From Streptomyces sp. B93 (GTDB taxonomy: Bacteria > Actinomycetota > Actinomycetes > Streptomycetales > Streptomycetaceae): a stretch of 64,000 nucleotides of DNA. This document shows, piece by piece, positions 33,529 through 36,787 of this stretch. The notes under the pieces are model-generated. The model made no database searches. It worked only from the letters and a program-made list of their open reading frames with translations, and was not told where the DNA came from. The DNA is taken from NCBI RefSeq assembly GCF_018070565.1, contig NZ_JAGPXL010000001.1, forward strand, positions 124,001 through 188,000, written 5' to 3'. Within the stretch, counting starts at the first letter, position 1, and each line of letters begins with the position of its first letter. Made by a program: the position numbers and the translations under genes.

Positions 33529-34530
33529 TCAGCCCTTGATGCTGTCCTTCGGAGCGCCTTCGGTCTCCTTGTGCGCCGCCTCGGCCGCGTCCTGCTTCCG
33601 GGAGGCCCACAGGCTGGTGATCGTGGTGACGATCAGGACGGTGCAGATCACGCCGAGCGAGACCGGGATGCTGATCTCGGGGACATGGACGCCCGACTCG
33701 TGCAGAGCGTGCAGGACGAGCTTGACGCCGATGAAGCCGAGGATGATCGACAGGCCGTAGCTCAGGTGGATCAGCTTCCTCAGCAGCCCGCCGATGAGGA
33801 AGTACAGCTGCCGCAGACCCATCAGCGCGAAGGCGTTGGCGGTGAAGACGATGTACGGGTCCTGGGTGAGGCCGAAGATCGCGGGGATCGAGTCGAGCGC
33901 GAACAGGACGTCCGTGGTCCCGATCGCCAGCATCACGACCAGCATCGGGGTCATGACCCGCTTGCCGTTCTGCTGGATCCACAGCTTGGTGCCGTGGTAG
34001 CGGTCGGCCACGCCGAAGCGGCGCTCGGCGGCCTTGAGGAGCCTGTTCTCCTCGTACTCCTCGTCGTGCTCCTCGGCGCGGGCCTCCTGGATGAGCTTCC
34101 AGGCGGTCCAGATGAGGAAGGCGCCGAACAGGTAGAAGACCCAGGAGAAGCTGGCGATGATCGCGGCACCGGCCGCGATGAAGATGGCGCGCAGCACCAG
34201 GGCGATCAGCACACCGACGAGCAGCACCCGCTGCTGGTACTGCGAGGGCACGGCGAACTTCGCCATGATCAGGACGAAGACGAAGAGGTTGTCGACGCTC
34301 AGCGACTTCTCGGTGATGAAGCCCGCGAAGAACTCTCCGGCCGGCTGGCCGCCACCGAAGACGAGCAGGCCGACCCCGAAGAGTCCGGCCAGGACGATCC
34401 AGACGACGGTCCAGATCCCGGCTTCCTTGATCGACACGTCATGGGGCTTGCGCCCGATGAAGAAGTCGACGGCGATCAGGGCGCTCAGGCCCACGATGGT
34501 CAGGACCCACAGGGTCAGGGAAACATCCAC
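33529..34530 (-). CDS. TerC family integral membrane protein
   Basis: This 333-residue protein has about nine hydrophobic helices and the TerC/Alx hallmarks: an acidic residue in helix 1 (VDFFIGRK), FFAGFITEKSLSVDNLFVFVLI in the middle and FALDSIPAIFGLTQDPYIVFTANAFALMGLRQLYF later. Characterised members (Alx, MeeF/MeeY) export manganese and help metalate secreted proteins; the family was first named for tellurite resistance. I chose GTG 34530 (VDVSLTLWVLTIVG), 5 nt from GGAGG; the longer open frame reads into an RNA leader. That leader is a probable manganese riboswitch. Two TerD-domain genes lie upstream. Confidence 0.94.
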   Translation of the reverse strand: MDVSLTLWVLTIVGLSALIAVDFFIGRKPHDVSIKEAGIWTVVWIVLAGLFGVGLLVFGGGQPAGEFFAGFITEKSLSVDNLFVFVLIMAKFAVPSQYQQRVLLVGVLIALVLRAIFIAAGAAIIASFSWVFYLFGAFLIWTAWKLIQEARAEEHDEEYEENRLLKAAERRFGVADRYHGTKLWIQQNGKRVMTPMLVVMLAIGTTDVLFALDSIPAIFGLTQDPYIVFTANAFALMGLRQLYFLIGGLLRKLIHLSYGLSIILGFIGVKLVLHALHESGVHVPEISIPVSLGVICTVLIVTTITSLWASRKQDAAEAAHKETEGAPKDSIKG

Positions 34531-34534
34531 TGCG

Positions 34535-34587
34535 CCTCCGGCAGTACGTAACGGCAAACAGTCAGTCAGCGTCGTCGCTGCCGGAGG
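34535..34587 (-). promoter_or_regulatory. Predicted expression-platform hairpin sequestering the terC ribosome binding site
   Basis: On the minus strand CCTCCGGCAG (34587-34578) is the exact complement of CTGCCGGAGG (34544-34535), which contains the terC ribosome binding site. The two can form a 10-bp helix with a 33-nt loop. The first segment is also the 3' strand of helix P1 of the upstream aptamer, so the two pairings are mutually exclusive. Confidence 0.75.
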
Positions 34588-34701
34588 TCTCTTCCACCCA
34601 GGGTGACCGGTGTGCCCGGCGCCCTTGGGCCGACGCCCCGGGATCTGGCCTGATCCGTATTGACGGGGACGCCGCAAACTGGCAGGGAGTACTCCCCTCC
34701 G
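34582..34701 (-). ncRNA. yybP-ykoY-like manganese riboswitch aptamer upstream of terC
   Basis: On the minus strand the leader begins CGGAGG-GGAGTA and ends AGAGA-CCTCCG, ~120 nt apart. The CGGAGG/CCTCCG pair is a perfect 6-bp P1; the GGGGAGTA and GGAAGAGACC strings beside it resemble the conserved core of the yybP-ykoY family as I remember it, which senses Mn2+ and often precedes TerC-type exporters. The inner part contains several G+C hairpins. I could not fold it or run a covariance model. Confidence 0.75.
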
Positions 34702-34709
34702 TGCCGTCT

Positions 34710-34739
34710 ACAGTAACCCAATCACCAAGGAACGGTAAA
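34710..34739 (-). promoter_or_regulatory. Candidate terC promoter
   Basis: On the minus strand TTTACC (34739-34734), an 18-bp spacer and TACTGT (34715-34710) place the transcript start a few nucleotides before the first P1 strand of the riboswitch, as expected. Confidence 0.55.
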
Positions 34740-34813: not shown

Positions 34814-36787
34814 TCAGCGCTTCCAGGCGCGGCGGGCCGCCGCCACCTGGGTGAGCACCTGCTGGACGACCTGGCTGCCGGACGGGACGAGCGGCGGCTC
34901 ATAGGTCCAGGCGTGGCCGACCCACGGGTCGGCGAGGTGGTCGTCGGGCACCGGAGTCAGTCGCAGCAGCGAACGCCACAGCGGATCGAGCAGCGGGCCG
35001 TACCCGGCGGCGTCCTCCCGGTCGGCGACCATCATGAGGTGGACACCGACGTCCGGGCCCTCGTCGGCGAGGTAGCGCAGCTGGGTCACGGCCCGGTCGT
35101 CGAAGCCGTGCGGGAAGTCGTTGACCACCAGCAGCTGCTGAGCCGTGTCGAGGTCCGGCGGGAGCGAGTCGGCGGCGCCGCCGCGCAGCGCCATCTGGAC
35201 CAGGTCCACCCGTTGGGTGAGCCGGGCGAGCACCTCGGTGACACCCGCCGCTCCGACGGCGGGCGGGGCGGCGAGCACACCGGTCTGCACCAGCGGTGCC
35301 AGCGCCTGCGCACCCGAACCGGCGGGGTCGATGACATGGACGGTGAACTCGCCCGCCGGGTGGACGGCCAGCAGCCGGGCGGCGTGCGCCACCGCCGCCT
35401 CCATCGCCAGGCGGCGCAGGTCGTGGGAGTCGGTGAAGGAGCCGTCGAGCGATCCGGCGCGCCCGCTGTCGATCCACAGCCCGCGCTCCAACGGCAGCCG
35501 GACCAGCATCGGTATGCGCAGCGGGGCGCACTCGGGGAGATGGAGGTCGCCCAGGCGTACGGCCATGGGGATCTCCATCGGGACCCGGTAGCCGTGCCAC
35601 ACGGGGTTGTCCCAGCTGGCGAACATCGGCGGCAGGGCCGGTTCCACGACGTCGGCCTCGGCGGTGAGGTGGGCGAGGTCGCGGTCGAGGGCCTGCCGGG
35701 CCTGGTCGACGAGCTGGGTGTGCCGGGCGCGGGCGGAAGCCCGGGCGGCGTCGGCCTGGCCGCCGATCCGGCTGCGCGGATCGGACAGGACCTGCTCCAG
35801 CTCCTTCTCCATCCGGGAGTCGGCGAAGTCGACGGCGCTGCGGTACGCGGCCGTGGTGCGGGCCAGGTCCTCGAACATGCCCCAGACCTGGTTGTAGAGC
35901 CGCTCGTCCATGGACCAGCCGGTCGCGTCGCCCGCCACCGGCTGCCGGGGCTGTCCGGGCTGGGCCGGGGGCGCGGTGGGCGGCGGGGGTGGGGGCGCGG
36001 AAGTGCCGCGGCCGGGGTGGGTGTAGTCGATGGGTCCGCCGGTGGTCTGCTGCGCGGCGGGGTCGGCCGGGGCGCCCGTCGACGGGTAGCCCGGATGGTG
36101 GCCGGTGGTGCCCTGGGGGCCCTGGTTGCCGTACGGGGCGTTGGTCTGGTCGCCGGTGCCGTAGGGCGCTGCGGCCTGCCGGGAGCGGTCGCCGTCCGCC
36201 GTACGGGGCGGAGGGGCCGCCACCGAGCGGGCCATGCCCTGGCCGACCGCGTCGAGAATGGTGCTCGCGAGCTGGTGGGAGTGGAGGAGTCCCTGGTCGG
36301 CGAGGAGTTCGGCGAGGCCGCCCGCGTAGCCCTGGCCGACGGCGCGCACCTTCCAGGAGCCCTGCCGCCGGTACAGCTCCAGCGCCACGACGGCGGACTC
36401 GACGTCCAGGCCGGTGAGGGTGAAGCTGGCGATCTCGGTGCCGTCCAGGCCGGTGACCGCGACGAAGGGGGCGGCGACGGCGCCGAAGCGGACCGGGCCG
36501 CCGCCCTGGCCGACGGGCAGCGCCAGCAGGATGTGGATGCGGTGCACGGCGTCCGGCATGGCGTCCAGGTCCACCGCGAGGCGATGATCGGCGGCTGCCT
36601 GCCGGGACACCTCGAGACCGGCCAGGGTGGGTGTGCCCGGATGGGCCACCCACTCGGCGCCGTGCACCTGGTGCTGCTCGTCGCTGAGCGTCGCGGCGGC
36701 CACGATCGGCGTGCCGGCCGAGACCCGGATCTCAAGACGGGTCTGGGAGAGCGGGTGGTTCTGTCCCCGCGCCAGCTCGGCCGTCAT
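34814..36787 (-). CDS. TerD-domain protein with long C-terminal extension
   Basis: The 657-residue protein begins with a TerD-like domain (~10-190): LAVDLDAMPDAVHRIHILLALP, FTLTGLDVESAVVALELYRRQGSWKVRAVGQGYAGGLAELL match the TerD calcium-binding stress-protein pattern. A Pro/Gly/Gln-rich linker (~195-295) follows, then ~360 residues with a coiled-coil-like Ala-rich helix (DFADSRMEKELEQVL to LTAEAD) and a C-terminal alpha/beta region containing IPMLVRLPLERGLWIDS and QLLVVNDFPHGFDDRAVTQLRYLAD. That last part resembles FtsK-type ATPase remnants in tellurium-gene neighbourhoods, but I see no Walker A. It is downstream of the TerD gene at 36852 (64-bp gap) and probably co-transcribed. Confidence 0.85.
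   Translation of the reverse strand: MTAELARGQNHPLSQTRLEIRVSAGTPIVAAATLSDEQHQVHGAEWVAHPGTPTLAGLEVSRQAAADHRLAVDLDAMPDAVHRIHILLALPVGQGGGPVRFGAVAAPFVAVTGLDGTEIASFTLTGLDVESAVVALELYRRQGSWKVRAVGQGYAGGLAELLADQGLLHSHQLASTILDAVGQGMARSVAAPPPRTADGDRSRQAAAPYGTGDQTNAPYGNQGPQGTTGHHPGYPSTGAPADPAAQQTTGGPIDYTHPGRGTSAPPPPPPTAPPAQPGQPRQPVAGDATGWSMDERLYNQVWGMFEDLARTTAAYRSAVDFADSRMEKELEQVLSDPRSRIGGQADAARASARARHTQLVDQARQALDRDLAHLTAEADVVEPALPPMFASWDNPVWHGYRVPMEIPMAVRLGDLHLPECAPLRIPMLVRLPLERGLWIDSGRAGSLDGSFTDSHDLRRLAMEAAVAHAARLLAVHPAGEFTVHVIDPAGSGAQALAPLVQTGVLAAPPAVGAAGVTEVLARLTQRVDLVQMALRGGAADSLPPDLDTAQQLLVVNDFPHGFDDRAVTQLRYLADEGPDVGVHLMMVADREDAAGYGPLLDPLWRSLLRLTPVPDDHLADPWVGHAWTYEPPLVPSGSQVVQQVLTQVAAARRAWKR

Follow-up and report, generated by a model that had tools for sequence, protein, structure and literature searches.

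The terC locus and its leader

The window, by which we mean the whole 64,000-nt stretch of the Streptomyces sp. B93 genome that was analysed, carries on its minus strand a gene for a terC/alx-type membrane metal exporter (Table 1). The protein, scanned from position 34527 and so without its start codon, matches Pfam TerC (5.7e-53) and NCBIfam TIGR03718 R_switched_Alx (386 bits, cut-off 246), and shares 37% identity with E. coli Alx. A 120-nt element (34582-34701) closed by the helix CGGAGG/CCTCCG precedes the gene. On the minus strand a -10-like TACTGT comes first, followed by the element and by a short platform with CTGCCGGAGG and the start codon at its end. Directly upstream of the element lies a 657-aa ORF with a TerD domain (34814-36787).

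A sequence-only reading of this DNA had described a 6-bp helix closing a leader of about 120 nt, with strings at its two ends. Both strands of this helix, P1.1, are where it had placed them, and so are the minus-strand strings GGGGAGTA (34690-34697) and GGAAGAGACC (34586-34595). The latter is now read more finely, as the P1.2 strand GGAA, the canonical L1 strand GAGA and the CC of P1.1; its interpretation as an L1 strand lengthened by one base was rejected, since other genera show P1.2 GGAA together with a canonical GAGACC.

The folding energy of the leader has a z-score of -2.45 against dinucleotide shuffles. A TANNNT box was found within a single 6-position window in all 78 homologous streptomycete leaders (the highest of 500 shuffles reached 20) and in 38 of 64 other leaders (shuffle maximum 10). 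A scan with the consensus sigma-70 promoter reported no match at TTTACC/TACTGT. Because the TANNNT box sits in a narrow window before P1.1, terC transcription probably begins where that helix does, at its 5' edge.

Table 1. Features of the terC leader region in the window, in order of transcription
Feature	Position	Strand	Remark
Possible -35 TTTACC	34734-34739	-	18 nt before the -10
-10-like TACTGT	34710-34715	-	TANNNT box within one 6-position window in most leaders
P1.1 5' strand CGGAGG, switch helix	34696-34701	-	
L1 5' strand GGAGTA, metal-site loop	34690-34695	-	GGGAGTA string; role as reported in PMC6754395
P1.2 5' strand CTCC	34686-34689	-	class-wide covariation
11-nt linker	34675-34685	-	crystallised family members have helix P2 here
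P3.1 5' strand CGGCG(TC)CCC	34665-34674	-	
L3 core GTCAATACG	34656-34664	-	A 34661, putative counterpart of the invariant Mn2+-binding A41 of L. lactis
P3.2 5' strand GATC	34652-34655	-	
P3.2 3' strand GATC	34642-34645	-	
P3.1 3' strand GGG(G)CGTCG	34631-34639	-	
P4 5' strand GCCC	34627-34630	-	covariation
P4 3' strand GGGT	34596-34599	-	covariation
P1.2 3' strand GGAA	34592-34595	-	C.A mismatch at L1 end
L1 3' strand GAGA (of GAGACC)	34588-34591	-	same GAGACC in the X. oryzae riboswitch
P1.1 3' strand CCTCCG	34582-34587	-	
Anti-Shine-Dalgarno strand CCTCCGGCAG	34578-34587	-	overlaps the P1.1 3' strand
Ribosome-binding region CTGCCGGAGG	34535-34544	-	
terC/alx-type membrane metal-exporter gene	33529-34530	-	GTG start 34528-34530; Pfam TerC, TIGR03718

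Conservation of the helices

Protein similarity was used to fetch 80 terC loci, 79 from Streptomyces and one from an Actinobacteria bacterium. The element is present in 78 of them; in the other two (L042 and L053) the leader is absent from the 220 nt before terC. Alignment A1 comprises 39 sequences, the window and 38 of 42 chosen from the 78 at 93% identity. Alignment A2 (53 rows) holds class-wide leaders and seven other loci, and A3 holds 20 leaders from other classes.

Within the streptomycetes 15 of the 26 pairs are invariant. In A2, two-sided changes occur in 24 of the 26; such cells number 297, where shuffled controls give 90 and slid controls no more than 40, and 96.0% of the cells are paired. 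In A3 the corresponding figures are 18 pairs and 69 cells, against 17 in the controls. Both alignments were fitted to the model and therefore lean toward its structure, although the slid controls still score far lower. Helices P1, P3 and P4, by which the yybP-ykoY family is recognised, all covary.

No P2 hairpin was found in the leader or in its relatives. In the window and the 44 class loci, all 45 leaders have a linker of 4-11 nt at the P2 site, linkers shorter than 7 nt being counted as unfolded without folding. Across the 78 homologous leaders it spans 4-17 nt and does not fold stably, and in 20 leaders from outside the class it is 3-8 nt, judged by length only. P2 is described as a component of the four-way junction of the family (PMC11087558), and a review presents the S. 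pneumoniae mgtA member as having a three-way junction (PMC9495176). The absence of P2 was dropped as a new feature, given this three-way member and alx, which lacks P2 by our reading of the alignment. At the L1 end of P1.2 a C.A mismatch (window positions 34689 and 34592) occurs in 76 of the 78 homologous streptomycete leaders; the same position holds mostly standard pairs in other genera.

Membership of the yybP-ykoY family

Two covariance models were built, R1 from the 39 streptomycete terC leaders of A1 and R2 from 53 sequences of the phylum, seven of them loci found with the Rfam model RF00080. R1 matches the E. coli alx leader (L218:10375-10503) with 33.9 bits (E 8.7e-6 in 30 kb) and gives no match to E. 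coli mntP at E<=10. R2 finds both, alx with 52.6 bits (E 1.7e-9) and mntP with 29.4 bits (E 1.4e-4); both matches stand upstream of the respective gene. Of 14 actinobacterial loci that RF00080 had found, R1 searched alone also picks up 11 at E<=1, including seven at E<0.01; one among the 11 matches only in part, over 27 nt. The R1 match to alx serves as the independent evidence; the R2 match to mntP was partly aided by the RF00080-found training loci. These reciprocal matches support the assignment to the yybP-ykoY family that had been made from the sequence.

The check that the earlier reading proposed for this assignment, a search with RF00080, returned no match to the leader. Nothing was found at the gathering score in the window or at E<=10 in a 501-base stretch containing the leader, and the whole genome yielded only three weak matches, all elsewhere (E 1.6 to 8.3). 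In control searches RF00080 gave no match at E<=10 to the same E. coli alx leader, and it scored that of mntP at 41.6 bits, with a cut-off of 45. Its negative result is thus uninformative for alx-like members, since alx is missed too and mntP falls below the cut-off. A match to the Rfam model is a database criterion and not a defining feature of the family. The RF00080 consensus and the leader have the landmarks GGGGAGUAG and GUCA..UAC in common; the consensus differs in that the GGGGAGUA region and the bases preceding it are unpaired, in a P2-like hairpin and in a longer L3.

The likeness to alx extends over the whole element. Full alignments with R1 and R2 cover P1.1, L1, P1.2, P3.1, L3 (CGUCA..ACG), P3.2 and P4, only about 5 nt stand at the P2 site of alx by reading of the alignment and the sequence, and the regulated proteins are of the same family. 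Unlike alx, the window leader is GC-rich and has a short platform and an anti-SD strand that overlaps P1.1, the platform of alx lying outside this comparison. The mntP leader is matched by R2 and not by R1; it carries, by reading, a P2 hairpin and a longer L3 (GUCAACAUACUCG) and precedes a different exporter gene. In print there is also the leader of Corynebacterium glutamicum cg2157 (terC), a 5' UTR from RNA-seq annotated as yybP-ykoY (PMC3890552) and compared here by annotation only. A yybP-ykoY leader before terC was therefore already known in C. glutamicum. Among the listed titles and abstract beginnings of the open-licence literature, no paper on the Streptomyces terC leader was found.

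The probable metal site and its ligand

In the crystal structures of the X. oryzae and L. lactis riboswitches, Mn2+ is reported to be held by phosphates and by the N7 of an invariant L3 adenosine; L3, UCA41AUUC in L. lactis, docks onto L1, and the 3' strand of L1 and P1.1 in X. oryzae begins GAGACC (PMC6754395). The window L3, UCAAUAC, is one base off the L. lactis UCAAUUC. Its L1 is GGAGUA/GAGA followed by CC, so that GAGACC on the 3' side is identical to that of X. oryzae, and the family landmark of L1 GGGGAGUA with a 3'-side GAGACC is present. The columns of the L1/L3 core are invariant or nearly so in A1. GGGAGTA occurs in 39/39, 53/53 and 19/20 rows of A1, A2 and A3, and GTCA, counted as presence of the string and not by position, in 39/39, 49/53 and 19/20; every one of the 112 rows has RAGACY close to the 3' end. 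The L3 adenosine column, matched by eye to L. lactis UCA41AUUC, is invariant in the 39 rows of A1, which suggests A 34661 as a putative Mn2+ ligand, the counterpart of the adenosine that contacts the metal.

That this aptamer fold responds in vivo to pH or to another divalent ion, alone or with Mn2+, seems unlikely to us, as the adenosine supplying the soft ligand for Mn2+ is retained and the downstream genes encode Alx-type TerC, P-type ATPases and GDT1. The idea draws on alx, which is the closest characterised relative by layout, and on the near-invariant streptomycete C.A mismatch beside L1, a kind of mismatch that can be protonated. It draws further on reports that alx responds to alkaline pH besides Mn2+ (PMC9603457), that signals of this kind also act on the mntP leader, and that S. 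pneumoniae mgtA binds Ca2+ and Mn2+ (PMC9495176). An extended form of it, in which the leaders form a phylum-wide P2-less branch of Mn2+ riboswitches and the streptomycete C.A beside L1 is a protonated A+.C sensing pH and Mn2+, we consider quite doubtful. Mn2+ is the ligand that we infer for the leader.

Two mutually exclusive pairings

The sequence-only reading had also proposed a directly readable switch, and its pairings stand. All 10 nt of CCTCCGGCAG are complementary to CTGCCGGAGG, the stretch shortly ahead of the GTG start codon. P1.1 and the anti-SD pairing exclude each other, because CCTCCG is common to both. The longest perfect complement between the 3' region of P1.1 and the SD region is at least 7 nt in 76 of the 78 leaders, against a background of 1.0% among 6,585 other 12-mers from the same leaders. 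Since the element is kept in 78 of 80 loci and the complement reaches this length in 76 of 78 leaders, the anti-SD pairing is not due to chance.

The covariation of P1 and the anti-SD helix that the reading expected in relatives was found by permutations, by the covariation counts and by counts of perfect complements. The permutation test used 39 of 52 leaders; non-TerC loci, four RF00080-type TerC loci, the distant TerC locus L165 and L171, whose start was not found, were excluded. L195 was kept as parsed at its second GAGACC, and L175 and L185 were kept with uncertain starts. The mean duplex energy of P1.1 was -8.5 kcal/mol with the leader's own strand and -7.0 with swapped strands, and for the anti-SD duplex these means were -15.7 and -11.9. 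For neither helix did any of the 10,000 permutations, which ignore relatedness, reach a mean as low as the own one. Among the 39 candidates the own partner ranked first in only 9 leaders for P1.1 and 10 for the anti-SD helix, with median ranks of 2 and 5. A perfect anti-SD complement of at least 6 nt is present in 30 of the 39 own pairs (77%) and in 29% of swaps; nine of the class leaders have a shorter one.

The shared strand varies by genus (CCTCCGG, CCTTCGG, CCTCGAA, CCTTGAC and others), and its partners can change along with it, as in L186 with CCGAAGG, CCTTCGGCAGC and GCTGCCGAAGG. The ligand helix and the anti-SD helix have one strand in common and both covary, as in an SD-sequestering riboswitch. 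Since the covariation involves three strands, the P1.1 5' strand, the shared strand and the SD, the switching mechanism is directly testable.

In an energy model that omits tertiary and metal contributions, the window leader, folded without constraint, adopts the SD-blocked state at -89.6 kcal/mol, and forcing P1.1 gives -77.6, a gap of 12 kcal/mol. The predicted metal-free fold has the SD paired with a probability near 1. Transcription would complete the element 37 nt ahead of the first base of the SD-side strand. Because the SD-blocked fold lies 12 kcal/mol below the P1.1-closed fold, the switch probably acts kinetically during transcription and not as a simple equilibrium, and Mn2+ binding alone may fail to shift a full-length transcript.

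A further pairing, GGGA-GTAC-TCCC (window 34685-34696), could form a local hairpin that breaks P1.1, L1 and P1.2 and possibly belongs to the off state. Among 45 leaders, 39 have a similar predicted hairpin between GGGGA and the P1.2 5' strand, with an energy of -2 kcal/mol or lower. This hairpin was set aside, as base composition may explain it.

Regulated step and proposed mechanism

The leader is very probably a yybP-ykoY Mn2+ riboswitch of the alx type, and it probably controls terC at translation. This rests on the likeness of sequence and structure to alx, and to mntP through R2, on the conserved core, on the covariation of both exclusive helices and on the exporter genes downstream. Transcription would start just before P1.1. 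At high Mn2+, L1 and L3 would dock around the metal and stabilise P1.1; CCTCCG would be held in this helix, the SD CCGGAGG would be free and the TerC/Alx exporter would be translated. At low Mn2+, P1.1 would give way and CCTCCGGCAG would pair with CTGCCGGAGG, blocking the ribosome. The metal would thus turn the gene on. The mntP leader is reported to switch on translation with Mn2+ (PMC9603457).

The switch had been called purely translational. This is plausible, since a scan for an intrinsic terminator found no terminator-like site in the leader, and falls short of proof. Regulation mainly at the level of transcription, for example by Rho-dependent termination with the anti-SD pairing as trigger, appears improbable, because the competitor of P1.1 is a pairing whose end is the SD itself and which tracks the SD across genera, and because of the same lack of a terminator-like site. 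It would have a ready route, as blocked translation often leaves RNA exposed to Rho. Other members of the family are reported to regulate transcription (PMC6754395). That the leader is an upstream coding extension or a leader peptide, conserved at the protein level, is almost certainly wrong and was rejected, for although the terC frame of the window extends without a stop as far upstream as a TTG at 34677, it is open across the leader in only 29 of the 78 homologous leaders, leader lengths modulo 3 are spread 34/29/15, and the compensatory base changes favour RNA pairing.

Distribution and downstream genes

By DNA similarity alone, the leader region of the Mn2+ riboswitch candidate is matched in 96 of 150 genomes of the family and in 11 of its 17 genera. 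The model searches reach further, with counts that are lower bounds at class, phylum and genus level owing to stricter filters: R1 finds at least 161 of 296 class genomes and 60 of 114 genera. Among 296 genomes of the phylum, at E<=0.01, R1 matches at least 39 and RF00080 at least 13, one of these above its cut-off, and no genome is common to the two lists. R2 matches at least 81 of the same genomes, 15 of which had supplied training sequences, and recovers nine of the 13 RF00080-found genomes, seven through its own training loci. A plasmid search added one further terC leader, in Streptomyces clavuligerus.

Forty class loci (L158-L197) were chosen for spread among the R1 class matches listed, and L154-L157 were also included. 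TerC follows the leader in 41 of these 44. In L159, L161 and L174, which belong to one family, a protein of about 280-300 aa replaces it; the two of the three that were scanned had no Pfam or NCBIfam match, and this protein is a candidate for an unknown Mn2+-regulated protein. Outside the class, 20 of the 21 listed R1 places were used, one at a contig end being omitted. Their leaders stand before TerC (9), a P-type cation ATPase (8), a Na/Ca exchanger (1) and an M50 protease (1), and one is cut by a contig end. The downstream genes are of the metal-export kind that the family controls. The M50 peptidase, which has a CBS domain (L202:230-1426), is an unusual target for a Mn2+ switch.

R2 has a second match in the B93 genome (G000:C104:14687-14792, equivalent to L220:101-206; 47.7 bits), before a gene for a GDT1 divalent-cation/proton antiporter. 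This second element resembles a Mn2+ riboswitch, with an L3 of GUCGACAUACUG and a long platform. In the genus, at least 40 of 41 genomes have an R2 match and at least 29 have two or more. Seven second matches were fetched, and GDT1 lies downstream in all five that were scanned. Of the ten further places fetched, the proteins of eight were scanned, L222 and L226 being left out.

Significance for manganese regulation

The kind of riboswitch described here is already known; what is new is its wide distribution, mostly missed by RF00080. A negative Rfam result is not to be trusted for the yybP-ykoY family, in which a studied member, alx, is itself missed. If the C.A mismatch were a protonated A+.C, the streptomycete leaders would be combined sensors of pH and Mn2+, with a tuning unlike that of alx. 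As the RF00080 and R2 counts given above for the phylum show, the element fills a gap in the manganese regulation of Streptomyces and its relatives, and R2 directs attention to genes, so far unstudied, that Mn2+ may control.
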